From assembly GCF_013364195.1 (NCBI RefSeq), contig NZ_CP054918.1, positions 7,677,001 through 7,741,000 on the forward strand: DNA of 64,000 bases. Direction: 5' to 3'. The stretch's first letter is position 1. The number at the start of each line of letters is the position of its first letter. Shown one piece after another: positions 29,415 to 49,607 of this stretch. The DNA is from Streptomyces sp. NA04227 (GTDB lineage Bacteria; Actinomycetota; Actinomycetes; Streptomycetales; Streptomycetaceae). The notes beneath the pieces are model-generated. The model searched no databases. It was not told the origin of the DNA and was given only the letters and a program-made list of their open reading frames with translations. The translations under genes and the position numbers were made by a program.

Positions 29415-31411
29415 GTACCGCCGCCCCCGCCTCGGCGCCGCCCGCACCCGGCCCCTCGGGCACGTCCGCCGGTGACCGCGTACGGGCCCTGCTGCACCGG
29501 CGCGGTCCGGTCAAGCTCCTGCTGCTCGTCCTCGCCGCCGCCGTACTGCTGCCGCTGGCCCGGGCCACCTGGTCCGGCGCGGCCTGGCCCGAGGGACTGA
29601 CCGTCGACGTCTCCGGGCCGCTCGGCGACACCAGCGACTGGATCATCGACAACCGCGACCGGCACCCGCTCTTCACGTACTTCCTCGGCCATCTGAGCAA
29701 CGCCGTGGTGCTCTCGGCACGCGCCCTGTACCTGCTGCTCCTCGCGCTCGGCTGGACCGGCGTCACTGCCGGAGCCACCCTGCTCGTCTGGCGTCTGGCG
29801 GGGCTGCGGACCGCCGCGACCACGCTGGTCTTCTTCCTGGCCAGCGGCCTGCTCGGCATGTGGGTGCCGACCATGCAGACCCTCGCGCTCATGATCGTCG
29901 CGGTGTTCGCCTCGGTCGTGACCGGCGGTGTACTGGGTCTCGGCGCCGGACTCTCGGACCGGGTGTTCCGGCTGCTGCGGCCCGTACTCGACACCATGCA
30001 GGCGCTGCCCGCCTTCGCGTATCTGCTGCCGGTGGTGATGGTCTTCGGTATCGGCGTGCCCGCCGCGCTGCTCGCCACCGTGGTCTACGCGGCGCCGCCG
30101 ATGGCACGGCTGACCGCGCTCGGGCTGCGCCGCGCCGACCGCGGCGCCATGGAGGCCGCCGCCTCGCTCGGCGCGACCCGCACCCAGCTGCTGCTGACCG
30201 CCCGGCTCCCGCTGGCACGCAGGGAACTCCTGCTCGGCGTCAACCAGACGATCATGATGGCGCTGTCGATGGCCGTCATCGCCTCCATGATCGGCGCGGC
30301 TGGACTCGGCGACCGCGTCTACCAGGCCCTGGCCTCGGTCGACGTCGGCGGAGCCCTGGCCGCCGCCGTCCCGATCGTGATGCTCGCCGTGGTCATGGAC
30401 CGCACCACGGCCGCCGTGGGCCGACGGCTCGGCGCGGGCGCGCCCGCCACCGGCGCCCGCGCGCTGCGCGGTCGGTGGGCCTGGCCCGCCCTCGCGCTCC
30501 TCACGGCCGCCCTCGCCGCCCTCGGACGCCTGTCCGGCGACCCGGTGTGGCCCACCGACTGGACCGTGCCCTTCGCGCAACCCGTCAACGACGTCAAGGA
30601 GTGGATGGTCGACCACCTCTACTCCGGCGTCCCCGTCGTCGGCGGCACCGCCGACTGGTCGGCCCACTTCACCGACTGGGTGCTCAACCCGCTGCGCGAC
30701 GGCCTGACCGGCCTGCCCTGGTACGGCACCCTCTTCGTCGTCGCCGCACTCGCCTGGCTCATCGGCACCTGGCACACCGCCCTGACCGCCGTCCTCGCGA
30801 TGGCCGTGATCGGTGTCCTCGGCGTGTGGAAGCCCTCCATGAACACGCTCTCCCAGGTGATCGCCGCACTCGCTCTCACCCTGGTGATCGGCGTCGGCAT
30901 CGGCGTCCTCACCGCCGGGAGCAGACGGCTGGAGGCGCTCCTTCGGCCGGTGCTCGACGTCATGCAGACGATGCCCCAGTTCGTGTACCTGATCCCGGTG
31001 GTCGCCCTGTTCGCGGTCGGCCGCGCCCCGGCCGTCGCCGCGGCCGTGGTCTACGCGCTGCCCGCCGTCATCCGCATCACCGCCCAGGGGCTGCGCCAGG
31101 TCGACCCGGCCGCGGTGGAAGCCGCCCGCTCACTCGGCGCGACCCGCTGGCAGACGCTGCGCCAGGTCCAGCTGCCGCTGGCCCGGCCCGCCCTGCTGCT
31201 CGCCGTCAACCAGGGCGTGGTCCTGGTCCTCGCCGTGGTCGTCATCGGCGGCCTGGTCGGCGGCGGAGCGCTCGGCTACGACGTCGTCACCGGCCTGGCC
31301 ACCGGAGACCTGGCCCTCGGCCTGGTCGCGGGGATCGCCATCGTCTGCCTCGGCCTGATGCTCGACCGGGTCACCCAGCCCACCGAACGCCGCACGGGGA
31401 AGGGAGCCTGA
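29411..31411 (+). CDS. opuAB: Glycine betaine ABC transporter permease, two fused OpuAB-type domains
   Basis: This 666-residue protein contains two binding-protein-dependent permease domains in tandem. Each has an EAA loop (EAAASLGATRTQLLLTARLP near residue 255 and EAARSLGATRWQTLRQVQLP near 570) and about five or six membrane helices, with a D-W-I/MVDxx-type N-terminal segment repeated (DWIIDNRDRHPLFT, EWMVDHLYSGVPVV). Typical OpuAB/ProW is about 300 residues, so this is a fusion of two copies that could form the whole channel in one chain. ATG at 29411 overlaps the mini-ORF stop. It sits between the ATPase and binding-protein genes of one operon. Confidence 0.87.
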   Translation: MSTAAPASAPPAPGPSGTSAGDRVRALLHRRGPVKLLLLVLAAAVLLPLARATWSGAAWPEGLTVDVSGPLGDTSDWIIDNRDRHPLFTYFLGHLSNAVVLSARALYLLLLALGWTGVTAGATLLVWRLAGLRTAATTLVFFLASGLLGMWVPTMQTLALMIVAVFASVVTGGVLGLGAGLSDRVFRLLRPVLDTMQALPAFAYLLPVVMVFGIGVPAALLATVVYAAPPMARLTALGLRRADRGAMEAAASLGATRTQLLLTARLPLARRELLLGVNQTIMMALSMAVIASMIGAAGLGDRVYQALASVDVGGALAAAVPIVMLAVVMDRTTAAVGRRLGAGAPATGARALRGRWAWPALALLTAALAALGRLSGDPVWPTDWTVPFAQPVNDVKEWMVDHLYSGVPVVGGTADWSAHFTDWVLNPLRDGLTGLPWYGTLFVVAALAWLIGTWHTALTAVLAMAVIGVLGVWKPSMNTLSQVIAALALTLVIGVGIGVLTAGSRRLEALLRPVLDVMQTMPQFVYLIPVVALFAVGRAPAVAAAVVYALPAVIRITAQGLRQVDPAAVEAARSLGATRWQTLRQVQLPLARPALLLAVNQGVVLVLAVVVIGGLVGGGALGYDVVTGLATGDLALGLVAGIAIVCLGLMLDRVTQPTERRTGKGA

Positions 31412-31413
31412 CC

Positions 31414-32454
31414 ATGTCCCGTACCCGCGTGAAAACGCTCGCGAAAGCCCGCACGACAGCCCGCACGAAGGTCCGTGCGCACCGGGTGAAATTCGGCGCA
31501 CCGCTGCTCGCGGGCGTCACCCTGCTCGCCCTGTCCGGCTGCGGCAAGGCCGACATGACCAAGCAGGCCTCGCCCTTCGCCGCCGCGGAGGGCACCAAGT
31601 CGGTCACCCTGTCCGTACAGACCTGGGTGGGTGCCCAGGCCAACGTCGCGGTGGCCAAGCACATCCTCGAGGACAAGCTCGGCTACCGCGTCGACACCGT
31701 CCAGGTCGACGAGATCCCCGCCTGGGACGCCCTGAGCCAGGGCCGCGTCGACGCGATCCTGGAGGACTGGGGGCACCCCGAGCAGGAGGCCCGCTACGTC
31801 AAGGACAAGAAGACGATCACGGCGGGCGGTGACCTCGGGGTCACCGGCCACATCGGCTGGTACGTGCCCAAGTACTGGGCCGACAAGCACCCCGAGGTGA
31901 CCCACTGGAAGAACCTCAACAAGTTCGCCGACCAGCTGCGTACGCCGGAGAGCGGTGACAAGGGCCAGCTCATGGACGGTTCGCCGTCCTACGTCACCAA
32001 CGACAAGGCACTGGTGAAGAACCTCGGCCTGGACTACGAGGTCGTCTTCGCGGGCTCCGAGGCGGCGCAGATCACCCAGATCCAGCAGTTCGCCAAGGAG
32101 AAGAAGCCCTTCCTCACCTACTGGTACGAGCCGCAGTGGCTGTTCAACCAGGTCCCGATGGTCGAGGTCGAGCTCCCGAAGTACACCGACGCCTGCGGGG
32201 AGAAGGGCGCCGAGGACCCCACGACCGTGGACTGCGCCTATCCGCACACACCACTGCAGAAGTTCCTCAACACCGAGTTCGCCGAGAGCGGTGAGCCCGC
32301 CGCGCGGTTCCTGAAGTCCTTCAAGTGGACCAAGGAGGACCAGAACGAGGTGTCCGAGATGATCGCCTCCGAGGGCCTGTCGGCCGACGAGGCCGCCGAG
32401 CGCTGGGCCGAGCGGAACCCGCAGGTGTGGAAGCGCTGGCTGCCCCGGAAATGA
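31414..32454 (+). CDS. opuAC: Glycine betaine/choline-binding lipoprotein (OpuAC type)
   Basis: This 346-residue lipoprotein has a lipobox LALSGC (Cys43) after an unusually long basic N-region. The mature part contains the aromatic residues used for quaternary-ammonium binding in OpuAC/ProX proteins (LSVQTWVGAQAN, LEDWGHP, GHIGWYVPKYW, FLTYWYEPQWLFN). It is expected to present glycine betaine, or a related compound such as choline or proline betaine, to the fused permease. ATG at 31414 is preceded by AAGGGAG and starts 2 bases after the permease stop. A 41-base near-perfect palindrome ends the operon. Confidence 0.87.
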   Translation: MSRTRVKTLAKARTTARTKVRAHRVKFGAPLLAGVTLLALSGCGKADMTKQASPFAAAEGTKSVTLSVQTWVGAQANVAVAKHILEDKLGYRVDTVQVDEIPAWDALSQGRVDAILEDWGHPEQEARYVKDKKTITAGGDLGVTGHIGWYVPKYWADKHPEVTHWKNLNKFADQLRTPESGDKGQLMDGSPSYVTNDKALVKNLGLDYEVVFAGSEAAQITQIQQFAKEKKPFLTYWYEPQWLFNQVPMVEVELPKYTDACGEKGAEDPTTVDCAYPHTPLQKFLNTEFAESGEPAARFLKSFKWTKEDQNEVSEMIASEGLSADEAAERWAERNPQVWKRWLPRK

Positions 32455-34443: not shown

Positions 34444-35460
34444 TCATCCCTTCGACTTCAACTCCCGCAGGTACTTCCCGAACTTCTCCAGACCGTCGAT
34501 GTTGCGCGGCCCGCTGATCCCCTCGTTGTAGTTGAGGACGAAGAAGTTGTTCTTCTTCACGGCGGGCAGTTCCCGGGTCTTGGGGGACTTCTTCAGGAAC
34601 GCGATCTTCTCGCGGGCGGGCTGGTCGCCGTAGTCGAGGATGACGACGACCTCGGGCTCGGCCTCGGTGACGGCCTCCCACCCGACCTGGGTCCAGCGCT
34701 GGTCGAGCTGGTCGAAGATGTTGCGGCCGCCCGCGCTCTTGATGATGTCGTTGGGCGGTACCTGGCTGCCCGCGGTGAACGGCTGATCGGTGCCCGAGTC
34801 GTACAGGAACACCGGGACCCGCTCGCCCTTGGGGGACTTCGCCTCGACGGCCGAGACACGCTTCTTGAGACCGGCCACGACCTCGGTGGCCTTCTTCTCG
34901 ACGCGGAAGATCTTGCCGAGCCGTTCCAGGTCCGAGTACAGGGCCTTGAACGGGGTCATCCGCTGGGGGTGACCGGGGTAGTTGAAGCAGCTCTCGGTGT
35001 GCATGAAGCTCTGGACGCCGAGCTTGTCCAGGATCTTCGGGGTGATGCCGCGCTGGTCGCTGAACCCGGAGTTCCAGCCCGCCACGACGAAGTCCGACTT
35101 CGCCTGGACGACGAGTTCCTTGTTGAGGAGGTCGTCGCTGAGCATCTTGACCTTGGCGTACTCCGAGGCCCAAGGCGACTCGCTCACCGGCGGGTTGGCG
35201 GGCGGCATCACATAGCCGTGCACGTGCTTCGTCAGACCGAGGCTGAACAGCTTGTCCGCGCTGCCGCCCTCGTAGGCGACCGCGCGCTGCGGCACCTTGT
35301 ACTTCACGGACTCCCCGCAGCGCTGCACGGTGACCTTGTCGGAGGCCTTGTCGTCCGAGTCGACCTCGGCGCCGCAACCGGCGAGCAGGACCGTCGTCGC
35401 GAGGGCCGTACCGACAGCGGCATAGGAGCGCGGAGAGCGGCGGAATCGGGTTCTGGACAT
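34444..35460 (-). CDS. Periplasmic-binding-type lipoprotein, iron/metallophore class (FecB-like)
   Basis: This 338-residue lipoprotein has a lipobox VLLAGC (Cys29) and a class III substrate-binding fold characteristic of siderophore/cobalamin receptors (RAVAYEGGSADKLFSLGL, VVAGWNSGF, ILDKLGVQSFMHTES, IIKSAGGRNIFDQL, VVVILDYGD). It belongs to the FecCD/FecE-type transporter encoded just upstream on the same strand. The ligand is probably a small metallophore or metal complex. ATG at 35460 (MSRTRF) is preferred over the TTG/other starts upstream. It is the last gene of the Zur-like-controlled operon, separated by 96 bases from the ATPase. Confidence 0.82.
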   Translation of the reverse strand: MSRTRFRRSPRSYAAVGTALATTVLLAGCGAEVDSDDKASDKVTVQRCGESVKYKVPQRAVAYEGGSADKLFSLGLTKHVHGYVMPPANPPVSESPWASEYAKVKMLSDDLLNKELVVQAKSDFVVAGWNSGFSDQRGITPKILDKLGVQSFMHTESCFNYPGHPQRMTPFKALYSDLERLGKIFRVEKKATEVVAGLKKRVSAVEAKSPKGERVPVFLYDSGTDQPFTAGSQVPPNDIIKSAGGRNIFDQLDQRWTQVGWEAVTEAEPEVVVILDYGDQPAREKIAFLKKSPKTRELPAVKKNNFFVLNYNEGISGPRNIDGLEKFGKYLRELKSKG

Positions 35461-35556
35461 GGGGTGTTGGTGCCTTTCACGGGGAAGCGGTGAGCGAGTC
35501 ACGGCAAAGGGGCGAGGGAGCCGGAGGGAAGTTCTGAGCAGAGTTCGGAGGAGAGT

Positions 35557-36330
35557 TCAGAGGGAAGAGGTGAGCGAGTAGAGGAGCTGCGGGGCGCCCG
35601 ACAGCGGGTGGGGGACGATGCTGGCCTTGACGCCGAAGATCTCGTTGACGAGTTCGGTGGTCAGCACCTCGTCGGGGGTGCCGGTGGTCACCAGGCGCCC
35701 CCCGGACAGCACGCCGAGGCGGTCGCAGGCGGCCGCCGCGAGGTTGAGGTCGTGCAGGACGACCAGGACCGTGGGGCCCGCGCCGCGCAGCAGCGAGAGC
35801 AGTTCGACCTGGTGGCGGATGTCCAGATGATTGGTCGGTTCGTCGAGTACCAGGATCCGCGGTTCCTGCACCAACGCCCGGGCCAGGAGCACCCGTTGGC
35901 GCTCACCGCCGGAGAGGGTGAGGATGCCGCGGCGGGCCAGGTGGGTGATGTCGAGCCGGTCCATGGCCCCTGCGCACAGCTCCCGTTCGCGGCGACCGAG
36001 CGCCTGGTTGCCCCGCAGATGAGGGGCGCGCCCCAGGGCGACGACCTCCTCGACCGTGAAGTCGAGGTCCACCGAGCCGTCCTGGGTCATCGCGGCGACG
36101 AGCTGCGCGCTACGGCGTATCGGCAGTCGGGACAGGTCGTCCTCGCCCACCCGGACGGTGCCCGCACTGGGGCGCAGCGCCCGGTACACACAGCGCAGCG
36201 CGGTGGACTTGCCACTGCCGTTGGGGCCCACGAGTCCGACCACCTGGCCGTCGGGGACGTCCAGCGACAGGTCGTGCACCAGGCTCTTGCCGTCGGCGAC
36301 CACGGAGAGGTTTTCCAGCTTGAGATCCAT
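35557..36330 (-). CDS. Siderophore-type ABC transporter ATPase (FecE/FhuC-like)
   Basis: This 257-residue ATPase has Walker A (GPNGSGKST), Q loop (AAMTQDGSVDLDFTV), ABC signature (LTLSGGERQRVLLARALV), Walker B with NHLD (ILVLDEPTNHLD) and switch His (LVVLHDLN), the standard FecE/FhuC/BtuD set. ATG at 36330 lies one base after the permease stop, so the two are translationally coupled; an in-frame start at 36351 would overlap the permease. It energises the FecCD permease and works with the FecB-type lipoprotein downstream. Confidence 0.88.
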   Translation of the reverse strand: MDLKLENLSVVADGKSLVHDLSLDVPDGQVVGLVGPNGSGKSTALRCVYRALRPSAGTVRVGEDDLSRLPIRRSAQLVAAMTQDGSVDLDFTVEEVVALGRAPHLRGNQALGRRERELCAGAMDRLDITHLARRGILTLSGGERQRVLLARALVQEPRILVLDEPTNHLDIRHQVELLSLLRGAGPTVLVVLHDLNLAAAACDRLGVLSGGRLVTTGTPDEVLTTELVNEIFGVKASIVPHPLSGAPQLLYSLTSSL

Positions 36331-36331
36331 C

Positions 36332-37504
36332 TCAACGGCCCCCGAACACATAGCCTTTGCGGCGCATCAGGCCGATGAACACGGGCACGCCCACCAGCGC
36401 GGTGATGACGCCGAGCGGAAGTTCGCGGGGCGCCACCAGGATCCGGGAGAGCAGATCCACCCAGACCATGAAGACGGCGCCGACGAGCGGGGCCACGGCG
36501 AGTACCCGGGCGTGCGTAGCCCCGACGACCATGCGCACCAGGTGCGGCATGACAAGGCCGACGAAGCTGATGGCGCCGCTGACGGCGACCATGACACCGG
36601 TCATCAGGGAGACGAGTACGAGCAGCGCCCTGCGGTGCCGGTCGGGGTCGATGCCGAGGCTCGCGGCTGTCTCGTCCCCGAGGGCCATGACGTCCAGCGC
36701 CCGGGAGCAGCGGTACAGGACGGCCAGGCCGAGCAGTACGGACACGGCCACGACCGGCAGTTGACCCCAGGTCGCGGCGCCGAAGCTGCCCATCGTCCAG
36801 TACAGGACCATGCTGGTCGCCTCGCTGTCCGGGGCGAAGTAGATGATCACGCTCATCACGGCCTGGAAGCCCAGCGACATGGCCACGCCGGTCAGGACCA
36901 GACGCAACGGGGACAGCGCGCCCCGGGTGACCGAGGCGACGTACACCAGGAAGGCGGCGATGACCGCGCCGAGGAAGGCGCCCGTGGCGACGGCGTAGAC
37001 GCCGAGCGCCGCGAGGGAGCCGGTGACCGTGACTCCCACCGCGCCCACGGACGCGCCCGAGGAGACCCCGAGGACGAACGGGTCGGCGAGCGCGTTGCGC
37101 ACCATGGCCTGGATGGCGACGCCGACCGCGCTCAGCCCGGCCCCCACCAGCGCGGCGAGCACCACACGCGGCGCCCGGATCTGCCAGATGATCTGATACG
37201 TCGTCACCTCGTCCGCGTCGATGTGCCCGCCGGTGAGCGCCGCCCAGAGATAACGGGCGGTGTCCGCGGGGCCGATCACCGCCGAGCCCAGACCGATGGC
37301 GACGACCACCGAGAGCAGCAGGACGACGAGGAGCACGGCGCAGGCCGTCACCAGCGCCATGGGGGAGTCGAGAGGCTTTCTCGGTTCCGGTTGGGCGCCG
37401 GAGGGTGGATCCGCTGTCTTGGCGGCGTCCGCGGTACCGGCTTCCGCGGTGCGTGAGGCCTCCGCGGTGCGGACGGTGCGCCTGGACAGGGCGGGCGGGG
37501 ACAT
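36332..37504 (-). CDS. FecCD-family permease, siderophore/metallophore transporter
   Basis: This 390-residue protein has about ten transmembrane helices after a polar Ala/Glu-rich N-terminus, with FecCD landmarks (RAPRVVLAALVGAGLSAVGV, NALADPFVLGVSSGASVG, LYWTMGSFGAATW, SFVGLVMPHLVRM, ELPLGVITALVGVPVFIGLM). It forms the membrane channel as a homodimer. ATG at 37504 has GGAAAGG 9 bases upstream; the frame continues far upstream but is unsupported there. It is followed by the ATPase and preceded by the MFS exporter gene on the same strand. Confidence 0.88.
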   Translation of the reverse strand: MSPPALSRRTVRTAEASRTAEAGTADAAKTADPPSGAQPEPRKPLDSPMALVTACAVLLVVLLLSVVVAIGLGSAVIGPADTARYLWAALTGGHIDADEVTTYQIIWQIRAPRVVLAALVGAGLSAVGVAIQAMVRNALADPFVLGVSSGASVGAVGVTVTGSLAALGVYAVATGAFLGAVIAAFLVYVASVTRGALSPLRLVLTGVAMSLGFQAVMSVIIYFAPDSEATSMVLYWTMGSFGAATWGQLPVVAVSVLLGLAVLYRCSRALDVMALGDETAASLGIDPDRHRRALLVLVSLMTGVMVAVSGAISFVGLVMPHLVRMVVGATHARVLAVAPLVGAVFMVWVDLLSRILVAPRELPLGVITALVGVPVFIGLMRRKGYVFGGR

Positions 37505-37614
37505 GGGGTCGGCCTTTCCGTATGAGTGCCGAAATCCGTTGCTGGACAGGGGAGTTGGGGCCGCCCGTCGGTGCGGGACGGACGGGACGGGGGGCCGTGC
37601 GGGGAGGGAAGCCG

Positions 37615-38904
37615 TTATGCGGCGGAGGCGTCGGCGTCCGGCCGGTCGGCGCTCTCCGCCGGGGGCGCCGAGCGCGCGACGAGGACCGAGGCCCCGAGCG
37701 CCAGGACGACCAGCGCCCCGAACACCAGCGCCGTACCCGGGTATCCGGCGAGGCCGAGGCCCGCACCGCCGAGGGCGGCGCCGAGGAAGACCCCGAGACT
37801 CATACCGGCCGAGTTGATGCTCAGCGCCGAGCCGCGCAGGGTGTCGCACCGGCGGACGATCAGGCTCACCACACACGCGGCCACGACGGCGTGGCTCGCC
37901 GCGTGCAGCGAGGTCAGCGCCAGGGCGAGCGGCAGCCAGTGCGTGAAGAAGAAGCCCACCACCGAGGCCAGTGCCGCCAACAGGCCGATGAACAGGAGCC
38001 GTTCGGTGGCGATACGGGGCTGCGCCGCGTTGGTGAGCCGACCCGTGAGGAGGTTGCTGACGAAGAACGAGGCGCCGCTGAGCGTCCAGACGAAGGCGAA
38101 CAGCGCCGGATCGAGGTCGAAACGCTCGTCGTAGAAGGCCGCCAGATAGGCCAGGTACCCCATGAACACGGCGGTACGCAGCATCGCGATCAGCAGCAGC
38201 GGCACCACACCCGGCACCTTGCCAAGGGCCTTGAACGAGGCGAGATAGCCGAGGCGTTGAGCCTGTGCGGCGGTGTCGTCGTCCCGGTCGCGGCCGCGTG
38301 CCACGAACAGGACGGCGAGCAGCACACAGATCCCGGTGACCGCGACCAGGTCGCCCTCCCAGCCCCAGAACAGCGCGGGCAGCGCGACCACCGGCGCCGC
38401 CAGCATGGCCGTCATGGACTGCGTCGCGGTGACCAGGGTCGCCGCCCGGCCCGCCGCCTTGCCGCTGCCGAACCGGTCGGCGGCCGCCGCGGTGAGCGCC
38501 GGGTTGAGCACCGAGGTACTGGCGCCGACGAGCAGGCAGAACACGGCGAGCAGGACGAAGTCGCCGCTCGCGCCCAGTGCCGCGGAGGCGCCGAGCGCGA
38601 GCAGACCTCCGGCCGCCGCCCACTCCCGGGGCACCCGGTCGATCAGCGGAGCGAGCGCGGTGCCCACGAGCAGCGCCGAGAGTCCGCCGAGTCCGCGCAG
38701 TCCGCCCATCGCGGCGACACTGCTCCCGGCCTCGTCGGCGATCGGTACCAGATACGTACTGAAGATCGTGAACGGCAGCAGACTCACCGCCGAGGCCACC
38801 AGCACCGGCCCGAGGGCGCGCGCCATCTTCAGATCGCCGGGCAGCGCCTCGTCGGCGGCGTTCTCGGGGTCGTCCGTACGAGGCCGGTCGGCGTCGACGC
38901 TCAC
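37615..38904 (-). CDS. MFS transporter, probable small-molecule exporter
   Basis: This 429-residue protein has about 12 hydrophobic segments (starting GPVLVASAVSLLPFTIFSTY) and MFS-type loop arginines (PLIDRVPREW). It is encoded between the metallophore-type importer and a DUF364-type protein, with its GTG overlapping the stop of the latter by 4 bases. In many metallophore clusters an MFS pump exports the newly made chelator (for example SbnD or CntE), which I infer here. The substrate is unproven; it could also be a metal or amino-acid exporter. Confidence 0.8.
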   Translation of the reverse strand: MSVDADRPRTDDPENAADEALPGDLKMARALGPVLVASAVSLLPFTIFSTYLVPIADEAGSSVAAMGGLRGLGGLSALLVGTALAPLIDRVPREWAAAGGLLALGASAALGASGDFVLLAVFCLLVGASTSVLNPALTAAAADRFGSGKAAGRAATLVTATQSMTAMLAAPVVALPALFWGWEGDLVAVTGICVLLAVLFVARGRDRDDDTAAQAQRLGYLASFKALGKVPGVVPLLLIAMLRTAVFMGYLAYLAAFYDERFDLDPALFAFVWTLSGASFFVSNLLTGRLTNAAQPRIATERLLFIGLLAALASVVGFFFTHWLPLALALTSLHAASHAVVAACVVSLIVRRCDTLRGSALSINSAGMSLGVFLGAALGGAGLGLAGYPGTALVFGALVVLALGASVLVARSAPPAESADRPDADASAA

Positions 38905-39749
38905 GCCGCCTCCCCTTCGCTGCTCGCGGCGGCGGCGGACCGGTAGCGGTACATCGGCGTCGCGTCGGCGCTGAACTGCGAGAAGGGGAACGGCTCCGCG
39001 TTGAGGGCGGAGACCCCGGCGGGCAGGAAGGCGCGGGCGACGGCACTGCCGGTCTGCGCGTACACGACCAGCGGGATGCCCTGCTCACGGCAGTGTTCGA
39101 GGATCAGGTCGAAGGTGCCGTTGCTCAGGGTCATACCGGTCGCCACCACGGCGTCGGCTGCCCCCAGGACCTCGGTCATGTCGTCGCTGACCTGCTCGCC
39201 CCACTGGGTCGTACGCAGGTTCAGGTCACACGGCAGGCAGACCCCGCCCCGGTCGCGTATCGCCGCGACAAGAGGGTTGACCACGCCGATCAGCGCGACC
39301 TTGGACCCGGGCTCGATGTCCAGGAGCCCGGCGATGGAGGCGTCGCGTGCCTGGGCGCGCTCCAGGGGAGTCCCGGTGGGCAGGGTTACCCGCTCGGCGT
39401 CCGTCGCGTCCCGGTGCGGCCGGACCTCGGCGAGGTAGGCGTCGAGCGCGGCCACCCGGACCGGCGTCGACTCGTCGCGCAGCAGCTTGTCCAGCGCGGT
39501 GCCCGAGACGTTCTCGCAGAAGTCGGGGGCCAGTTCACCGGCCTCGAAGGAACAGGCGCCGAAGGACCGTCCGACCCGCACCAGCAGATAGTGGTTGTGG
39601 TACGTGACCTGGCTCCCGGCGAGACGGGTGGTGTGGTAGAGCCAGAACGCGCTGGTGACGGAGAGGTCCTTGGGGTCGGGACCGTAGGCGCCCGCGAGTA
39701 CGGCTTCGGTCAGTTCCGCGACGGTGTGCGGCTTTGGGGGGTGCGACAT
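38901..39749 (-). CDS. DUF364/DUF4213-type Rossmann-like protein
   Basis: This 282-residue protein has an N-terminal enolase-N-like region (YHNHYLLVRVGRSFGACSFE) and a C-terminal Rossmann-like part (KVALIGVVNPLVAAIRDRGG, ADAVVATGMTLSNGTFDLIL). This is the PF13938 + PF04016 arrangement. The published structure of a Desulfitobacterium member suggested a role in heavy-metal chelation, but no reaction has been proven to my knowledge. Here it sits between a PLP enzyme and an MFS pump in a Zur-like-controlled operon. That setting points to a role in making or handling a metal ligand. Confidence 0.7.
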   Translation of the reverse strand: MSHPPKPHTVAELTEAVLAGAYGPDPKDLSVTSAFWLYHTTRLAGSQVTYHNHYLLVRVGRSFGACSFEAGELAPDFCENVSGTALDKLLRDESTPVRVAALDAYLAEVRPHRDATDAERVTLPTGTPLERAQARDASIAGLLDIEPGSKVALIGVVNPLVAAIRDRGGVCLPCDLNLRTTQWGEQVSDDMTEVLGAADAVVATGMTLSNGTFDLILEHCREQGIPLVVYAQTGSAVARAFLPAGVSALNAEPFPFSQFSADATPMYRYRSAAAASSEGEAA

Positions 39750-39833
39750 CTCGTGTTCTCTCGTTGTGGTGTGCGGTACTGCGGTCGGTGGGGCGCCCGG
39801 GAATTCCCAGCAGGCGTTCAGGCGTTCAGGCGC

Positions 39834-40892
39834 TCAGGTGCGCCCGGCTCCGGCGCCGAACTCCGCGTCGGCCGAGGCGAGTTCGGCCGATTCCGCGAGG
39901 TCGGGCCAGGCGGCCGTCGACCAGGGGTGCTTCAACTCGTCGAGTGAGCTCACCTCGTGCGGCTTGAGCGCGTCGATGTCCAGCGCCTCCGCATGGCGGG
40001 CGTAGGCGCTCTCGACATAGCGATGGCCGGTGTCGGCGGCGATGAAGACATGGGTACGGGAGTCCCCGCGGCCGAGCTCCCACCGTGCCGCCAGATGGGC
40101 CGCCCCGGTCGAGAGCCCCGCGAAGATGCCGCTGGTGCGCAGCAGGTCCACGGCGCCGGACAGCGCGTGGGTGAAGTTGACCCAGTGCACCCGGTCGTAG
40201 AGCCCGTGGCGGACGTTGCGGAAGGGGATGGCGCTGCCGATGCCCGCGATGATCATGTCCGGGTCGGACACGTGCTCCGAGCCGAAGGTGACACTGCCGA
40301 ACGGCTGGACGCCGACCAGTGCGACGTCCTTGCCCCACTCGCGCAGATAGGAGGCGAGGGCCCCGGTCGAGGCGCCCGAACCCACGCCGCCCACCAAGGT
40401 CACCGGACCCTCGGGCAGTTCACGCGCGAGCGTCTCGGCGACCTCGCGGTAGCCGTAGTAGTGGATCTCGTCGTGGTACTGCCGCATCCAGTGGTACGTC
40501 GGGTTCGCCTCGAGGATCTCCGCGATCCGCCGGACCCGCAGCTCCTGGTCGAGTCGCAGGTTCTTGGACGGCCGTACCTGTTCCAGGGTGGCGCCGAGGA
40601 TCTCCAGCTGCACGCGCAGGGTCCGGTCGACGGTGGTGGAGCCGACGATGTGGCACTTCATTCCGTAGCGGTGGCAGGCGAGCGCGAGGGCCTGCGCGTA
40701 GATGCCGCTGGAACTGTCGATGAGGGTGTCACCGGGCTTGACCGCGCCGGTTTCGAGGAGGTGGCGGACCGCTCCGAGGGCGGAGTGGATCTTCATCGTC
40801 TCGAACCGCAGACAGAGCAGGTCCGGGCGGAGCGCGACGAGATCGGGTCTCTTGATCGCTTCCGCTATGTGGGGCTGTACGTGCCCGTGCAT
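39834..40892 (-). CDS. PLP-dependent fold-type II enzyme, cysteine-synthase/SbnA-like
   Basis: This 352-residue protein resembles the cysteine synthase/CBS superfamily: the PLP Lys is probably Lys34 (FETMKIHSALG), the phosphate/substrate loop is IDSSSGIYAQALALA in place of the usual TSGNTG, and the PLP-phosphate glycine loop is GGVGSGASTGAL. Family members make beta-replacements on O-acetyl- or O-phospho-amino acids (CysK, SbnA, DabA). The diverged loops argue against ordinary cysteine synthesis. ATG at 40892 follows AGGGAG. It is the first gene of the minus-strand operon and diverges from a threonine-kinase-like gene, so it might act on a phosphothreonine-type substrate; that is inference. 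Confidence 0.75.
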   Translation of the reverse strand: MHGHVQPHIAEAIKRPDLVALRPDLLCLRFETMKIHSALGAVRHLLETGAVKPGDTLIDSSSGIYAQALALACHRYGMKCHIVGSTTVDRTLRVQLEILGATLEQVRPSKNLRLDQELRVRRIAEILEANPTYHWMRQYHDEIHYYGYREVAETLARELPEGPVTLVGGVGSGASTGALASYLREWGKDVALVGVQPFGSVTFGSEHVSDPDMIIAGIGSAIPFRNVRHGLYDRVHWVNFTHALSGAVDLLRTSGIFAGLSTGAAHLAARWELGRGDSRTHVFIAADTGHRYVESAYARHAEALDIDALKPHEVSSLDELKHPWSTAAWPDLAESAELASADAEFGAGAGRT

Positions 40893-41170
40893 GTCGTCCG
40901 TCTCCCTGTCAGGCGGCCGGTCGGCGGGCGGCGCCGGGGCGAGGGGCCCTGAGGTCCCCGGCGGTACGGACTTCCCCCGTCGCGGCGGTGCGGATGGGCG
41001 CGCCCATGGGCTGCTCCTCGTCAATGTCGGAAGTATGGGACGTGCGAAGCGCGGTCGGAACCGGATGCCGCCAACGGGCCTGTGGGCTCTTGGCGTTGGC
41101 GCCGCGAGCGGTCGGCGGCGAGGCGGGACGAACGGCGGCTCCGGACGCCGAGTGAGAACTTCACACTAAC

Positions 41171-41185
41171 TGAAAATGATTGTCA
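41171..41185. promoter_or_regulatory. Zur/Fur-like operator A
   Basis: TGAAAATGATTGTCA matches the Streptomyces Zur-type 7-1-7 palindrome TGAAAATNATTTTCA with one change. It lies in the divergent spacer, 279 bases upstream of the PLP-enzyme start. The spacer (40893-41347) has no supported gene and is AT-richer than its surroundings around both operators. Confidence 0.65.
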
Positions 41186-41287
41186 AGTCCGACTGGGTGG
41201 GGGTGGGCGTGATCCCCGTCTTGCGATGGGGTTCGATTGCCGGGAATGCCAAGCTCGGCTTGCCTGGGGGGGGTTGATGAGTTAAAA

Positions 41288-41302
41288 CGATAATCACTTT
41301 CA
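41288..41302. promoter_or_regulatory. Zur/Fur-like operator B
   Basis: CGATAATCACTTTCA matches the same 7-1-7 palindrome at 11 of 14 informative positions. It lies 46-60 bases upstream of the GHMP kinase GTG, overlapping where its promoter should be. Confidence 0.6.
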
Positions 41303-41347
41303 ATAGCCCTGTGCGGCGCCATCGGTGCCGCTCCGGAGAGGAATTCT

Positions 41348-42301
41348 GTGAAGCTGTCCCGCGAGGCCCCGCCGAGGCCGCCTGCCCTGCGTCCGGGACG
41401 CACCGGGGTGGGCACGGCCTTCGGCACGTTCGGCGAGCTCCTCCAGGGCGTACTGCCGGAGGACGACGGGGACTTCCTCGTCACACTGCCGGTGGCCAGA
41501 TGGGCCATGGTGACCTTCCGGCAGGACCCCGGGCAGCGCGAACTGGTGGTACGGCCGCGGCACAAGACCAAGTCCCTTCGCCTGGCCCGCATGATCGCGC
41601 GCGAGGCGGGCAGGCCCGAGGCGGGTCTGCTCACCGTCAGCAGCGTGATCCCGGAGGGCAAGGGGCTCGCCAGTTCCTCGGCGGACCTGGTCGCGACCGC
41701 ACGGGCCGTCGGACAGGCGCTCGGCGTCGAGATGCCGCCCACCCGGATCGAGCGGCTGCTCGCCCGTATCGAACCCACGGACGGGGTCCTTTACCCGGGC
41801 ATCGTCGCCTTCCACCACCGCAGCGTCCGGCTGCGTGCCGTGCTTGGCTCCCTCCCCTCGATGGCGGTGGTCGGCGTCGACGAGGGCGGCGCGGTGGACA
41901 CCGTCGACTTCAACCGCATCCCCAAGCCCTTCACGGCCGCCGATCGCCGCGAGTACGCACACCTCTTGGACCGGCTCACCGAGGCGGTCCGCCGTCGCGA
42001 TCTCGCCGAGGTCGGCCAAGTCGCCACCCGCAGCGCCCTGATGAACCAGTCGCTGCGCCCCAAGGCACTCCTCGACCCCATGCGGGAGATCTGTCGCAGC
42101 ACCGGGGGACTCGGCGTGGCCGTCGGGCACAGCGGCACGACGCTCGGTGTGCTGTTCGACACGGGCGACCCCGCGTACACCCACCGTGTGAGCGCGGCGG
42201 CCCGGGCGTGCGGGGAACTCGCGGGCAACGCGGCGGTCTACCGGACCCTCAGTTTCCCCAACACTCTGTACGCGGGGCCGAACCTGCCCGCCCCGGTCTG
42301 A
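41348..42301 (+). CDS. GHMP kinase, PduX (L-threonine kinase)-like
   Basis: This 317-residue protein has a PduX-like N-terminus (TFGELLQGVLPEDDGDFLVT) and the GHMP ATP-binding loop PEGKGLASSSADLVA at residues 102-116, with a C-terminal GGLGVAVGHSGTTLGVLF motif. PduX phosphorylates L-threonine for cobalamin synthesis; here no cobalamin genes are near. The kinase diverges from a cysteine-synthase-like gene. The combination of threonine kinase with cysteine-synthase-like enzyme is known for 2,3-diaminobutyrate in friulimicin-type clusters. GTG at 41348 follows GGAGAGG. It is convergent with mtnP, the two stops being about 3 bases apart. Confidence 0.75.
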   Translation: MKLSREAPPRPPALRPGRTGVGTAFGTFGELLQGVLPEDDGDFLVTLPVARWAMVTFRQDPGQRELVVRPRHKTKSLRLARMIAREAGRPEAGLLTVSSVIPEGKGLASSSADLVATARAVGQALGVEMPPTRIERLLARIEPTDGVLYPGIVAFHHRSVRLRAVLGSLPSMAVVGVDEGGAVDTVDFNRIPKPFTAADRREYAHLLDRLTEAVRRRDLAEVGQVATRSALMNQSLRPKALLDPMREICRSTGGLGVAVGHSGTTLGVLFDTGDPAYTHRVSAAARACGELAGNAAVYRTLSFPNTLYAGPNLPAPV

Positions 42302-42304
42302 CCG

Positions 42305-43132
42305 TTACGGCAGCGCGAACGGCAGCGACAGCCCGTCCAGGGCCCGAGCCGCGGGGGAGTGGGCCGCCTCGGCGTCCTCGGGCAGCAGGGCGACGGCGTC
42401 CAGGACGACACGGCGCAGCCGCTCGGTGTTCTGTGCGAAGACCTCGAACACCTCCTCCTGCGCCACGCTCTCCTGCGCGTCGATGCCCGCGTCCAGATCC
42501 GTGACGATCGCCAACGCCGCATATCCCAGGGCGAGTTCACGAGCGAGTACCGCCTCGGGGTGACCGGTCATGTTCACCAGCGAACAGCCCGCGGCCGCCA
42601 GCCACCGCGACTCCGCACGGGTGGAGAAGCGCGGCCCCTCGACCACCACCATGGTGCCGCCGTCGACCGCCTCGATCCCCGACGCGGCCGCGGCCCTGAG
42701 CAGCGCCGTGCGGCCGTGCTCGCAGTAGGGGTCGGCGAAGGACACATGCACCGCGCCCTCGTCGTAGAAGGTCTGTATCCGGCCATGCGTACGGTCCACC
42801 AACTGGTCCGGCACGACGAAGGTGCCGGGTCCCCAGTCCCGCCGGAGCGAGCCCACCGCACAGGGGGCGAGGATCTGGCGTACCCCGAGCGAGCGCAGCG
42901 CCCAGATGTTCGCGCGGTAGTTGATCCGGTGCGGCGGCAGCCGGTGGCCGCGTCCGTGCCGGGGCAGGAACGCCACCGGGCGCCCCGCGACCGATCCGAC
43001 GGCCACCGGGTCGGAGGGCGGGCCGTAGGGGGTGGTGACCTCGAACTCCTGGGTGTCGTTGAGGAGTTCGTACAGTCCGCTGCCTCCGATGACCCCGATA
43101 CGGGCCACCGGCTCACTGCTGGTGGGAGTCAT
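42305..43132 (-). CDS. mtnP: S-methyl-5'-thioadenosine phosphorylase
   Basis: This 275-residue protein has the MTAP/PNP-2 pattern: IGVIGGSGLYEL, phosphate-binding FLPRHGRGHRLPPHRINYRA, VEGPRFSTRAESRW and NMTGHPEAVLARELALGYA, then VTDLDAG. It cleaves methylthioadenosine to adenine and methylthioribose-1-phosphate, feeding MtnA directly so no MtnK is needed. It is the last gene of the minus-strand mtn operon and is followed closely by the convergent kinase gene. Purine nucleoside phosphorylase is a less likely alternative given the neighbours. Confidence 0.88.
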   Translation of the reverse strand: MTPTSSEPVARIGVIGGSGLYELLNDTQEFEVTTPYGPPSDPVAVGSVAGRPVAFLPRHGRGHRLPPHRINYRANIWALRSLGVRQILAPCAVGSLRRDWGPGTFVVPDQLVDRTHGRIQTFYDEGAVHVSFADPYCEHGRTALLRAAAASGIEAVDGGTMVVVEGPRFSTRAESRWLAAAGCSLVNMTGHPEAVLARELALGYAALAIVTDLDAGIDAQESVAQEEVFEVFAQNTERLRRVVLDAVALLPEDAEAAHSPAARALDGLSLPFALP

Positions 43133-43228
43133 GTGCGTCCGTTCTGCTGCGGTTGGTGCTTGTGCTTGCGCTTGAGCGGGTTGCCCGGGGCGCCGTAGAG
43201 AGGGGCGGGGGAGGGCGGGTCGGTCGGT

Positions 43229-43942
43229 TCACGGAGTGGGCAGGTGCAGGTCCAGGCCTGTGAGGTCCCGGAGGGTGGGGTGTCCCGGGACGGTGCTGCC
43301 GCGCGGGTCGCCGGGGCGTCGTACGGCGACGGTCTGCCAGTCGGCGCTCGCGGCGGCGTCGAGTTCCTCGCGTACGTCGCTGGCGAAGAGCGTGTGGCGG
43401 GGCGGGACTCGCAGGGTGCGGGAGATCGTCCGGTACGCGTCCGGGTCCCGTTTTCCGCCCGCGTTCTCCAGGTCGAAGTAGCGGGTCAGGTAGCGGCTGA
43501 GGTCGCCGCGCCCGCTGTGCCGGAACCAGTTGAGCTGGGCCGCGGCCGACCCCGAGGAGTAGATGTGGCACTCGACGCCCGCGGCCCGCCAGCGCCGTAG
43601 CGCCGCAGGCACGTCCGGGTAGACATGCCCGCTGAGGGTGCCCGCTGCGTAGCCCTCGGCCCAGATGAGTCCCTGGATCCGTTTCAGCGGGGGCGCCTTG
43701 ACGTCCTGGTCGGACCAGGCGGCGAGAGTCGCACGTACGCCGTGCTCGTCCAACTCCCGGTTACTGGCGAGGACTTGGGTCTCGTGCAGGATCTCGCGCC
43801 AGGCCGGTTCGTCCCGGTGCGCCACCAGCCAGTCGGCGAGACGTGCCCTCGCATAGGGGAAGAGGACCTCGTGGACGTGGTCGGCGGAACCGGTGGTGCC
43901 CTCGATGTCCAGGACCACTGCCCGCACGCCGGCCTCGATCAT
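43229..43942 (-). CDS. mtnC: Acireductone synthase (enolase-phosphatase)
   Basis: This 237-residue HAD-superfamily protein has motif I LDIEGTT (nucleophile Asp with the E1-type Glu), motif II IYSSGS, a conserved Lys region (NAGGKRDPDAYR) and motif III FASDVREELDAA, the E1/MasA pattern. It converts 2,3-diketo-5-methylthiopentyl-1-phosphate to acireductone by enolisation and dephosphorylation. Its start overlaps the mtnD stop by 4 bases, and mtnP follows 96 bases downstream. Confidence 0.9.
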   Translation of the reverse strand: MIEAGVRAVVLDIEGTTGSADHVHEVLFPYARARLADWLVAHRDEPAWREILHETQVLASNRELDEHGVRATLAAWSDQDVKAPPLKRIQGLIWAEGYAAGTLSGHVYPDVPAALRRWRAAGVECHIYSSGSAAAQLNWFRHSGRGDLSRYLTRYFDLENAGGKRDPDAYRTISRTLRVPPRHTLFASDVREELDAAASADWQTVAVRRPGDPRGSTVPGHPTLRDLTGLDLHLPTP

Positions 43943-44541
43943 TTCGTGGCGTCCGTGGCGTCCGTGGCGTCCGTGGCGAGCAGGGCGTCGAGGCGAGGGA
44001 AGCGTCCGGCGATCGGATCGCCGGTGAAGTCGCCGACCCAGCCGTCCTCGCGCTCGAAGAACCGGATGGCGGTGAACTCCGGGCGCGGGCCCATGTCGAA
44101 CCAGTGCCGGGTGCCCGCCGGTACGGAGAGCAGGTCGCCCGCCTCGCAGACCACCGCGTGGATGCGGGCGTCGAGGTGCAGGTAGAAGCAGCCGGTGCCG
44201 TGCGCGAAGAAGCGCACTTCGTCCTCGGCGTGCCGGTGTTCCTCCAGGAAGGCCTTACGCGCCGTGGCCGCGCGCGTGGCCCACTCGGCGCCCGGCTCGG
44301 GGTGGAGCTGTGCCACGTCCACCAGCGCCAGCCCTTCCCGGGCGCACAGGTCGTCGATCTCGGGGCGGTAGCGCGCCAGTACGTCCCCGGCGGTGGTGCC
44401 GGCGGCGATGCTTCCGCGCAGGGGCCAGTGGCGCAGGGCCACCGAGCAGTCCGCGAGGGATGTGGCGATGCGCTCGGGTTCACGGGTGCGCAGCAGGATC
44501 CGGGTGGGATCGTCCTCGGGCATGACCTGGAGCAGTGTCAC
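43939..44541 (-). CDS. mtnD: Acireductone dioxygenase (ARD)
   Basis: This 200-residue cupin has the metal-binding set in HRHAEDEVRFFAHG (H-x-H-x4-E) and a later His (GTRHWFDMG), as in MtnD. The bound metal decides the product in the family: Fe gives the ketoacid precursor of methionine, Ni gives an off-pathway product. The C-terminus ends in a triple ATD repeat from a 9-bp repeat. It overlaps mtnC by 4 bases. Confidence 0.9.
   Translation of the reverse strand: MTLLQVMPEDDPTRILLRTREPERIATSLADCSVALRHWPLRGSIAAGTTAGDVLARYRPEIDDLCAREGLALVDVAQLHPEPGAEWATRAATARKAFLEEHRHAEDEVRFFAHGTGCFYLHLDARIHAVVCEAGDLLSVPAGTRHWFDMGPRPEFTAIRFFEREDGWVGDFTGDPIAGRFPRLDALLATDATDATDATK
43946..43978. repeat. 9-bp tandem repeat at the mtnD 3' end
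   Basis: GTGGCGTCC occurs three times consecutively (43946-43972), followed by a partial GTGGCG. Read on the minus strand it encodes ATD repeats in frame. Confidence 0.8.
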
Positions 44542-44557
44542 GGGTACAACTTCCCTT

Positions 44558-45241
44558 TCACAGCGGGTGGTTGGCGGGTGCCCCGGACCCGGCGAGCAGG
44601 ATCAGCCGACTGAGGGCCTCCACGCATTCGAGCCGGTTGCGGGCCTGTGGCAGGTCGCGGCCCCAGGCGGTGACGCCGTGGTCGGTGATGAGCAGGGCGG
44701 CCGGTGCGGCGGGGTCGGCGGCCAGGTGCCGGGCGACGTCCTCGGCGATGCGCGGTACCTCCGACCAGTTGGGGAAGACCGGGAGGCGGGTGTGGCTCGG
44801 ATCGGCGAGTCCGAGGCCCTTCAGGAGCTCGTAGCGCTCGATGCGCAGAGGGACGGTGCGGGCGGTGTCCCCGGTGCGGGAGGCGAGAGCCGTGGCGTAC
44901 GGCGAGTGCACATGGATCACGGCCCCCGCGTCCGTACTCCGGTAGACGGCGGCGTGGATCGAGGTCTCGGCCGAGGCCCGCAGCCGACCGGCGGACGGGT
45001 GGACCGTCCGGCAGTCGTCGACCTCGCGCCCCGTGTCCGCGTCCACCGTGACCATGTCCCGCTCGGTGAGCGCACCCTTGTCGCGTCCGCTGGCGGTGAT
45101 CAGAGCGGCCCTGTCCGGCAACCGTGCCGACAGATTGCCCGCAGTGCCGGGCATCCAGCCCCGCTCGTACAGAACCCTTGAGAACAGGGCGAGTTGGCGG
45201 CCGAGCGCGTCACGCGTCTCGTCGTCGGTGACGGCGCTCAT
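44558..45241 (-). CDS. mtnB: Methylthioribulose-1-phosphate dehydratase
   Basis: This 227-residue protein is a class II aldolase/adducin-fold enzyme with GNLSARLPDR, the ITASGRDKG substrate loop, ETSIHAAVYR and Zn ligands in VIHVHSPYAT plus a later His (LLITDHGVTAWG). It dehydrates methylthioribulose-1-phosphate to the diketone used by MtnC. Its ATG overlaps the mtnA stop by 4 bases. It lies 16 bases upstream of mtnD in the same operon. Confidence 0.9.
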   Translation of the reverse strand: MSAVTDDETRDALGRQLALFSRVLYERGWMPGTAGNLSARLPDRAALITASGRDKGALTERDMVTVDADTGREVDDCRTVHPSAGRLRASAETSIHAAVYRSTDAGAVIHVHSPYATALASRTGDTARTVPLRIERYELLKGLGLADPSHTRLPVFPNWSEVPRIAEDVARHLAADPAAPAALLITDHGVTAWGRDLPQARNRLECVEALSRLILLAGSGAPANHPL

Positions 45242-46314
45242 CGGGCCGTCCCGCCGAGGCCGGTCGGCTCGCTCGCGGCTGCCGGTGCCCCGGCCACCGC
45301 TGCCTGCGACGCCCGGAAGACCTGCTCCTCCGACACGATGGCGGTGATCAACTCGGCCGGTGTGACGTCGAACGCGGGGTTGTAGACGCGGGCCCCGGGC
45401 GGGGCTGCCGTTGCCCCGGCGAACGTCGTGACCTCTCGCGCGTCCCGCTCCTCGATCACGATCCGGGTGCCGTCGTCGAGCTCGCGGTCCCAGGTGGATT
45501 CCGGGGCCACCACCACGAACGGAACCCGGTGCCGTGCCGCGGCCACCGCGATGCCGTACGTGCCGATCTTGTTCGCCACGTCACCGTTCGCGGCGATCCG
45601 GTCGGCGCCGACCAGGACGCAGTCCACCATTCCCCGGGACATCGCCGAGGCCGCGGCGGAGTCGACGCACAGCCGGTACGGCACCCCCGCCTCGCCCAGC
45701 TCCCAGGCGGTCAGCCGGGAACCCTGGAGCAGCGGCCGGGTCTCGCCCACCAGGACCTCGGCGACACGGGCCCGCCGGTCCAGTTCCAGAATCACGCCAA
45801 GTGCCGTGCCCACGGCGGCTGTTGCGAGGCGGCCGGTGTTGCAGTGGGTGAGGATCCGCAGGGGCCGGTCCGGGGTGAGCGCGCGTACGAGGTCGGCGGC
45901 GCGGTGCACGGCGGCCCGGTTGACCGCCGCGTCCTCGTCGATCATGGCCAGCGCCTCGGCCAGTACGGCGTCGGCGCCGTCGGCGACATGGGCCGCGGCG
46001 CGGCGTACCGCCCAGGCCAGATTGACCGCGGTGGGCCGGGCGGCCGCGATCCGTGCGGCGTCGGCCCGTACCGCCGCGACCCCGCCCGGTCCCGCGGCGA
46101 GGTGGCGCCGGGCGGAGAGCGCCACTCCCAGCGCACCGGCGAGTCCGATGGCGGGCGCCCCGCGCACGGCCAGCGAGCCGATCGCCTCGATCACCGCGTC
46201 GACCGTGGTCAGCCGCAGGGTCCGGTACTCACCGGGCAGGGCGCGCTGGTCGATCGTGACGACGGCTCCGTCGTCCCATGACAGCGATGGACGCGCGTTC
46301 GGCGGCGGTTTCAC
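45238..46314 (-). CDS. mtnA: Methylthioribose-1-phosphate isomerase
   Basis: This 358-residue protein of the eIF2B-like family has the MtnA hallmarks: RGAPAIGLAGALGVALSARR, catalytic Cys in ILTHCNTGRLATAAVG and catalytic Asp in VLVGADRIAANGDVANKIGT. It isomerises methylthioribose-1-phosphate to the ribulose form. GTG at 46314 follows AGGAG. It is the first gene of the mtn operon; a Zur/Fur-like site lies 47-61 bases upstream, so the operon may be metal-regulated. No methionine aminotransferase (MtnE) gene is adjacent. Confidence 0.9.
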   Translation of the reverse strand: MKPPPNARPSLSWDDGAVVTIDQRALPGEYRTLRLTTVDAVIEAIGSLAVRGAPAIGLAGALGVALSARRHLAAGPGGVAAVRADAARIAAARPTAVNLAWAVRRAAAHVADGADAVLAEALAMIDEDAAVNRAAVHRAADLVRALTPDRPLRILTHCNTGRLATAAVGTALGVILELDRRARVAEVLVGETRPLLQGSRLTAWELGEAGVPYRLCVDSAAASAMSRGMVDCVLVGADRIAANGDVANKIGTYGIAVAAARHRVPFVVVAPESTWDRELDDGTRIVIEERDAREVTTFAGATAAPPGARVYNPAFDVTPAELITAIVSEEQVFRASQAAVAGAPAAASEPTGLGGTAR

Positions 46315-46360
46315 TCGGTTCTCCTGTCACGTCTGCAACGCTCGGAAGCGTATATGAAAA

Positions 46361-46375
46361 TGAAAACCACTTCAA
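46361..46375. promoter_or_regulatory. Zur/Fur-like operator C upstream of mtnA
   Basis: TGAAAACCACTTCAA, with an adjacent TGAAAAT at 46355-46361, matches the operators at 41171 and 41288 on the reverse strand at about 11 of 15 positions. It lies in the 265-bp mtnA/fur spacer. A weaker AACG-AAAAC-CGTT dyad nearer the regulator (about 46459-46475) could serve autoregulation. Confidence 0.5.
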
Positions 46376-49536: not shown

Positions 49537-49607
49537 CGATGTCCTCTCCATGCCCTGTCTGTCTGCCTGCCTGCTTGTGGGTGGGGTGCGCTGCCGCAAA
49601 GTCCTTG

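Follow-up and report, generated by a model that had tools for sequence, protein, structure and literature searches.

In friulimicin-type clusters, DabA, DabB and DabC make 2,3-diaminobutyrate by a route that combines a GHMP kinase, a cysteine-synthase-like enzyme and an argininosuccinate lyase. Among zinc-binding metallophores (zincophores), [S,S]-ethylenediamine disuccinate (EDDS; aes genes, Amycolatopsis japonicum), of the aminopolycarboxylic-acid class, is described as Zur-controlled, made without a non-ribosomal peptide synthetase (NRPS) and found through its Zur boxes (PMC4993170, PMC9252823, PMC6103462), and one cluster of the EDDS type is reported to contain a cysteine synthase, an ornithine cyclodeaminase and a decarboxylase. 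Coelibactin of Streptomyces coelicolor is described as a Zur-controlled zincophore (PMC5472717) and as a putative non-ribosomal peptide. Here we describe a locus of Streptomyces sp. NA04227, contained in a window of 64,000 nucleotides (7,677,001-7,741,000 of a single 7.89-Mb contig; nearest relatives in sequence searches mostly Streptomyces), that encodes a fold-II pyridoxal phosphate (PLP) enzyme, a DUF364 protein, a major facilitator superfamily (MFS) protein, a FecBCD-type importer and a divergent GHMP kinase (Table 1). With a probability of roughly two in three, this locus serves a metallophore (zincophore) that is made without an NRPS, under the control of Zur. Among open-licence papers, none was recognised as describing this gene set.

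Zur-type sites were sought with the S. coelicolor Zur consensus TGANNATSATNNTCA (PMC5472717), a 15-bp, 7-1-7 box (tGaNNatSatNNtCa) located upstream of Zur regulon genes, and scored in bits against a matrix derived from related loci. The window holds 13 consensus matches (one exact, at 41171, and 12 with two mismatches), compared with a mean of 2.09 and a maximum of 6 in shuffled sequence. The exact consensus occurs at four places in the whole 7.9-Mb genome, and the 41171 site scores 30.5 bits vs 11.8-15.9 for the other three. The genome's own znuA promoter contains two sites, TGAAAATGACTGTCA (23.4 bits) and TGACAACCGTTTCCA (19.5 bits), and the 41171 box, TGAAAATGATTGTCA, differs from the first of these by one base. 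Four window sites score at least 18 bits and fall in three upstream regions (PLP side, kinase side, and between mtnA and the FUR gene), the last of them slightly below the second znuA site; the best window site not overlapping these four reaches 11.1 bits, and a first-order Markov simulation of 40 sequences of 64 kb reached 16.3 bits at best, never 18. A first-pass annotation, made from the window's letters and open reading frames, had placed Zur-like boxes at both divergent starts, and both were recovered, an exact box on the PLP side and a weaker overlapping pair before the kinase. On this sequence evidence, Zur would bind at these sites, and Zur control and zinc dependence of the locus are predicted.

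When species genomes were scanned with the PLP enzyme, 189 relatives were confirmed, and the best 80 were compared; gene counts in these loci are lower bounds, and several contigs end inside the cluster. A box with no more than one mismatch to the published consensus lies inside the cluster span (with 400-base margins) in 61 of the 80 loci, and such sites number 76 in 678 kb of cluster span vs 17 in 849 kb outside it. The PLP and DUF364 genes, each at its own threshold, occur together in 75 loci, and the pair is kept in Streptomyces, Kribbella, Pseudonocardia, Amycolatopsis, Nocardiopsis, Microlunatus and other genera; three of the five loci without DUF364 meet a contig end at the PLP gene (L015 and L021 end right after it, and L079 begins with it). 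By gene content, the pair appears to be the constant core of the cluster and the kinase dispensable. In ten of 13 Kribbella loci, a box heads a series of Opp/Nik-type importer, PLP, DUF364 and MFS genes, one locus (L056) being without DUF364 and MFS matches, so the box and the gene set seem to travel together through varied gene orders. Genes for export and import occur in most of the 80 loci (MFS genes of one type in 51 and of another in 17; FecCD in 43; SBP5, a binding protein of Opp/Nik type, in 20), and tailoring-type genes include a methyltransferase-like gene, c6 (35 loci), a PhyH-type oxygenase (15) and a TauD-type oxygenase (9); importers and tailoring enzymes vary among loci. The comparison agrees with the earlier proposal that a metal ligand is made, exported and re-imported under Zur control, in its boxes and its transport genes, with the product left aside.

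The DUF364 assignment is backed by a profile score above the cut-off and by a predicted structure showing the two-domain fold. In the PLP enzyme, K38, R123 and Y143 (residue numbers as in the 39834-40904 reading) are aligned with K47, R132 and Y152 of SbnA, and the Schiff-base lysine, R123 and Y143 are invariant in all 20 aligned sequences, two diverged members among them. Arg132, Tyr152 and Ser185 of SbnA are described as key to the selection of O-phosphoserine, and the SbnA entry used in the alignment, 5d87, is the Y152F/S185G variant (PMC12414870). Because the SbnA-type Arg and Tyr positions are kept, in agreement with the neighbouring kinase, a phosphorylated hydroxy-amino acid is favoured as the predicted substrate.

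In the proposed mechanism, Zur, its local paralogue or both would leave the boxes during zinc shortage, and both divergent units would be transcribed. The GHMP kinase would phosphorylate the side-chain hydroxyl of L-threonine or L-serine, and the SbnA-like enzyme would remove the phosphate by elimination and join the resulting aminoacrylate or aminocrotonate to the amine of an amino acid (beta-replacement). The product would be a branched diamino acid, rich in carboxylates and comparable to what SbnA makes. DUF364 would perform a second conserved step, the MFS protein would export the ligand, and FecBCD would re-import the metal complex. The mtnABDCP operon would recycle methylthioadenosine (MTA), which suggests one step with S-adenosylmethionine (SAM) as carbon donor.

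The first-pass annotation had ended the locus at 42301; its real extent is larger, and five MTA-salvage genes and a Zur-like FUR gene adjoin it up to 47068. The operon mtnP-C-D-B-A (42305-46314, minus strand) is convergent with the kinase gene across a 3-base gap, and the FUR gene is divergent from mtnA. The methionine-salvage set is complete, with MtnA, MtnB, MtnC and MtnP above equivalog cut-offs and MtnD identified via PF03079. Two relatives, L027 and L034, hold metK-mtnA-B-D-C-P followed by FecCD-ATPase-FecB, divergent from c6-PLP-DUF364-MFS with consensus boxes between, and the region in genome G006 scores the same as L027. L072 contains metK-mtnA-B-D-C in that place, likewise divergent and with boxes between; mtnP matches there only weakly (65 bits), and the next 2.9 kb show no Fec match. 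L036 (6866-7399) retains a piece of mtnP between FecCD and the box, where its relatives hold the whole metK-mtn unit, and this remnant suggests loss of the salvage genes. The mtn layout of the window is an arrangement separate from these metK-mtn units. Eleven of 12 unlinked mtn regions fetched are without a 16-bit site; a 25.9-bit site lies upstream of the unlinked mtn operon (L155) of genome G031, in which a distant-group DUF364 cluster (below) is present as well.

In nicotianamine synthesis, SAM is the aminocarboxypropyl donor, and metK with MTA salvage is what a pathway using SAM in this way would need; methyl transfer would release S-adenosylhomocysteine. A SAM-consuming, MTA-releasing step is hinted at because MTA salvage, accompanied by metK in three relatives, adjoins the cluster. 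No obvious enzyme for aminocarboxypropyl transfer was recognised in the window; DUF364 or the PLP enzyme might perform it, or the mtn linkage might have another cause, and we treat the clue as a lead because most relatives are without linked mtn genes. A wider proposal is tentative and, taken whole, somewhat unlikely: DUF364 and the fold-II PLP enzyme would be the core of an unnamed actinobacterial zincophore family with at least two Zur-boxed types, one step of which uses a SAM carbon unit and releases MTA, so that some clusters would have a SAM synthetase of their own and complete MTA salvage, both under Zur control. If true, this would be the first biochemical role for DUF364, and would give bacteria a parallel to grasses, in which the making of nicotianamine and phytosiderophores is tied to the methionine (Yang) cycle. 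The DUF364 role has been a question since at least the 2010 structure paper, which suggested that the protein takes part in metal chelation and in the synthesis of molecules resembling flavins, pterins or siderophores (PMC2954201), and would become directly testable if the zincophore reading is right, with a constant partner enzyme, a likely phosphorylated-amino-acid substrate, zinc starvation and the possible by-product MTA as handles.

The methyltransferase-like gene c6 (L024:9232-9999 and 34 other loci) is conserved near the PLP and DUF364 genes and has an NPP motif. Its predicted model ranks with HemK2/N6AMT1, a carbamoyl N-methyltransferase and PrmC (TYW2 at rank 45), and it is probably an N-methyltransferase, an assignment that leaves the MTA-salvage genes unexplained. 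Identification as an azetidine-carboxylate synthase (AzeJ type) was rejected, as the 19 PDB sequence matches include none with the name AzeJ. A c6 search of the genome of strain NA04227 gave no match at E 0.001, although a search without a positive control shows little.

Several results weigh against a zincophore locus as described. FecBCD importers commonly serve ferric siderophores, and the metal could be iron or another. The best NCBIfam match of the PLP enzyme, SbnA model TIGR03945 (130.7 bits), misses the cut-off of 349.95, and the third key SbnA residue, Ser185, is replaced by glycine (G175). Nineteen of the 80 loci have no box with one mismatch or fewer in the span. L056 has a box and no detected DUF364 though its contig continues, and L068 has neither; these two are real misses or exceptions. 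The co-occurrence expected for PLP enzyme, kinase and DUF364 holds for the first and last, whereas the kinase was found in 33 of the 80 loci only (type A, divergent as in the window, 20; type B, 13), and of 18 same-genus genomes with a kinase match, 12 have it outside the cluster (50-71% identity). MTA salvage is linked in 3 of the 80 loci and in 2 of the 10 same-genus genomes holding both genes; across 150 genomes, mtn and PLP genes occur in 34 and 50, and the 10 shared match the approximately 11 expected by chance.

The genome holds four further FUR-family genes, one about 1.9 kb from znuA; the window FUR protein is 42% identical over 124 residues to this znuA-adjacent protein and at most 33% identical to the other three, and a similar gene (about 100 bits or more) occurs in 11 of the 80 loci, in 10 of these inside the cluster span. 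The divergence of the local protein from the genome's presumed Zur is compatible with a ligand for iron, nickel, cobalt or copper, sensed by this paralogue instead of Zur; FecBCD and Opp/Nik-type importers serve several metals, and MtnD-type enzymes are themselves metal-dependent. We consider this unlikely, since the 41171 box fits the Zur consensus exactly at one base from the znuA box, and an iron-regulator-type box was absent at up to three mismatches from the consensus used.

The genus was surveyed in 150 evenly drawn Streptomyces genomes (PLP enzyme at E 1e-100 or better, DUF364 at E 1e-30). The PLP gene is present in 50 genomes (54 places) and DUF364 in 66, where it forms a close group (29 places) and a distant group (39 places). 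A listed PLP gene lies within 5 kb of 27 of the 29 close-group places; at the 28th (G025) the adjacent PLP gene (L184) is absent from the survey list. The 29th does not share a contig with either of that genome's two PLP places, and one of these two is truncated where its contig ends. In each of four further close-group loci (L184-L187), a site reaches at least 21.6 bits. In all six distant-group loci fetched (L179-L183, L188), an ATP-grasp gene with a 21.8-26.4-bit site at it accompanies DUF364, an SBP5 importer gene and a diverged PLP gene (87-105 bits); in L183 (7380-16284), the PLP and importer genes are separated by genes for a methyltransferase, an MFS protein and an enzyme of the mandelate-racemase/enolase family. 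We know of no product for this second Zur-boxed type. Around the remaining 27 PLP places, no DUF364 gene of the close group lies within 5 kb, and all ten such loci fetched (L169-L178) carry an ATP-grasp ligase-like gene and none has a site of at least 18 bits. Within this small sample, DUF364 and Zur-type boxes occur together and the PLP family by itself brings no box, L056 of the 80-locus set being an exception.

Locus L068 (9103-15873) groups its PLP-family member with ATP-grasp ligase-like genes, a GHMP kinase, a second PALP enzyme and an MFS gene, with no DUF364 or box, and in L178 a FecBCD importer adjoins the PLP/ATP-grasp set. The L169-L178 and L068 sets are possible dipeptide antimetabolite clusters.

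The ATP-grasp ligase-like genes of this sister set, and those beside kinase homologues outside the cluster (seven of eight regions), give some room to a pathway of diaminobutyrate or diaminopropionate type that supplies a building block for an antibiotic or dipeptide, with the transporters serving self-protection. For the locus itself this is quite improbable: no ligase, NRPS or argininosuccinate lyase is among the genes annotated at 34.4-47.1 kb, and the ligase-type loci fetched are those without boxes.

The kinase was found in 18 of the 150 same-genus genomes at E 1e-40. Among the 120 kinase homologues listed, one is named L-threonine kinase (P0021), one threonine kinase (P0058) and one 'Threonine kinase in B12 biosynthesis' (P0086), three JGI homologues are named 'involved in propanediol utilization', and most others are called 'kinase' or are nameless; no NCBIfam threonine-kinase model matched. 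The earlier description as PduX-like is therefore supported by Pfam as far as a GHMP kinase, and the PduX likeness derives solely from the source names of a few homologues. A cobalamin role for the kinase and PLP enzyme, raised there as an alternative, is weakened because the off-cluster kinases share regions with another fold-II PLP gene (5/8) as well as ATP-grasp genes, which points to small-molecule contexts; these regions were not searched for cobalamin genes. Ordinary cysteine, cobalamin or methionine metabolism next to an iron importer by chance is very improbable: a few kinase homologues have cobalamin or propanediol names and the mtn genes are housekeeping in type, but the PLP-DUF364 pair is kept across genera with boxes in most spans, and the kinase is found too seldom to serve cobalamin synthesis generally, assuming that most streptomycetes produce this cofactor.

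Gene families were assigned with Pfam profiles, and finer identities with NCBIfam models and their equivalog cut-offs. All seven genes of the minus-strand set and divergent kinase named by the first-pass annotation were confirmed in place by Pfam. The MFS and DUF364 genes overlap by 4 bases, and FecB falls below the cut-off of its nearest NCBIfam model (TIGR03868, 155.4 bits vs 392.4).

Table 1. Genes and Zur-type sites of the locus (window positions).
Feature	Position	Strand	Evidence
FecB-type solute-binding lipoprotein (metal-complex uptake, predicted)	34444-35502	-	PF01497 76.9 bits
FecE-type ABC ATPase	35557-36330	-	PF00005 110.8 bits
FecCD-type permease	36332-~37504 (start by inspection)	-	PF01032 299 bits
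MFS exporter candidate	37615-38904	-	PF07690 106.3 bits
DUF364 protein	38901-39749	-	PF04016 43.1 bits (cut-off 23)
SbnA-like fold-II PLP enzyme	39834-40892	-	PF00291 109.7 bits
Zur-type box TGAAAATGATTGTCA, PLP-operon side	41171-41185		0 mismatches to consensus; 30.5 bits; ~280 bases before PLP start
Two overlapping weaker Zur-type sites	41282-41296 and 41288-41302		2 mismatches each; 21.4 and 19.2 bits; ~46 bases before kinase
GHMP kinase, probable amino-acid (Ser/Thr) kinase	41348-42301	+	PF00288 44.3 bits; PF08544 28.2 bits
mtnP, MTA phosphorylase	42305-43132	-	NF005876 425.8 bits (cut-off 306); TIGR01694 314.8 (274.85)
mtnC, acireductone synthase	43229-43942	-	TIGR01691 211.2 bits (cut-off 128.1)
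mtnD, acireductone dioxygenase	43939-44541	-	PF03079 90.4 bits; no NCBIfam match
mtnB, methylthioribulose-1-P dehydratase	44558-45241	-	TIGR03328 167.1 bits (cut-off 137.05)
mtnA, methylthioribose-1-P isomerase	45238-46314	-	TIGR00512 379.7 bits (cut-off 279)
Zur-type site between mtnA and FUR gene	46355-46369		2 mismatches; 18.6 bits; ~41 bases before mtnA
FUR-family regulator, Zur-like paralogue	46580-47068 (start by inspection)	+	PF01475 63.4 bits

The locus is preceded (29411-32454) by an annotated choline/glycine-betaine-type ABC permease and, by eye, a lipoprotein binding protein, resembling an osmoprotectant importer, and followed (47314-51863), again by eye, by a tandem pair of similar large secreted proteins, alpha-L-fucosidase-like, beyond which lie an apparent ROK-type regulator and then a sugar ABC transporter.

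The ornithine-cyclodeaminase family (PF02423) has three genes in the genome and none in the window. Outside the window (G000:C1:6488181-6491477), a match to this family precedes a same-strand paralogue of the PLP enzyme by about 1.6 kb; the two may form a pair of SbnA/SbnB type.

Compared with known systems, the locus is predicted to work like Zur-controlled zincophore loci, yet it fails the SbnA/SbnB, EDDS-type and diaminobutyrate tests; the EDDS, staphyloferrin B and diaminobutyrate routes do not appear to fit because the cyclodeaminase, decarboxylase and argininosuccinate-lyase partners are absent from the locus. It resembles EDDS in predicted Zur-type control, NRPS independence and presumed derivation from amino acids, and differs in having DUF364 and a kinase without a cyclodeaminase or decarboxylase (no decarboxylase among the genes called and annotated at 34.4-47.1 kb); it is set apart from aes by description, and aes may hold DUF364. 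With SbnA/SbnB, which provide the 2,3-diaminopropionate of staphyloferrin B, it shares the fold-II PLP superfamily and the K, R and Y of the O-phosphoserine site, whereas the cyclodeaminase partner is missing from the window and the PLP score is under the SbnA cut-off. The pairing of a GHMP kinase with a cysteine-synthase-like enzyme recalls the Dab route, but DUF364 stands instead of an argininosuccinate lyase and the kinase is found in part of the loci only; the absence of the lyase, already pointed out in the first-pass annotation, holds among the genes called and annotated in the same 34.4-47.1 kb. Opine-like zincophores (staphylopine, pseudopaline) show a similar zinc-controlled layout for making, exporting and importing the ligand, and some relatives of the locus have an Opp/Nik-type importer; no nicotianamine-synthase-like or opine dehydrogenase gene is among the locus genes annotated. 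Coelibactin, a Zur-controlled zincophore from the same genus as the host of this locus, differs in that no NRPS gene is annotated here. If the zincophore reading is true, the locus would represent a widespread zinc-acquisition chemistry outside the NRPS, NRPS-independent siderophore (NIS), opine and EDDS routes.

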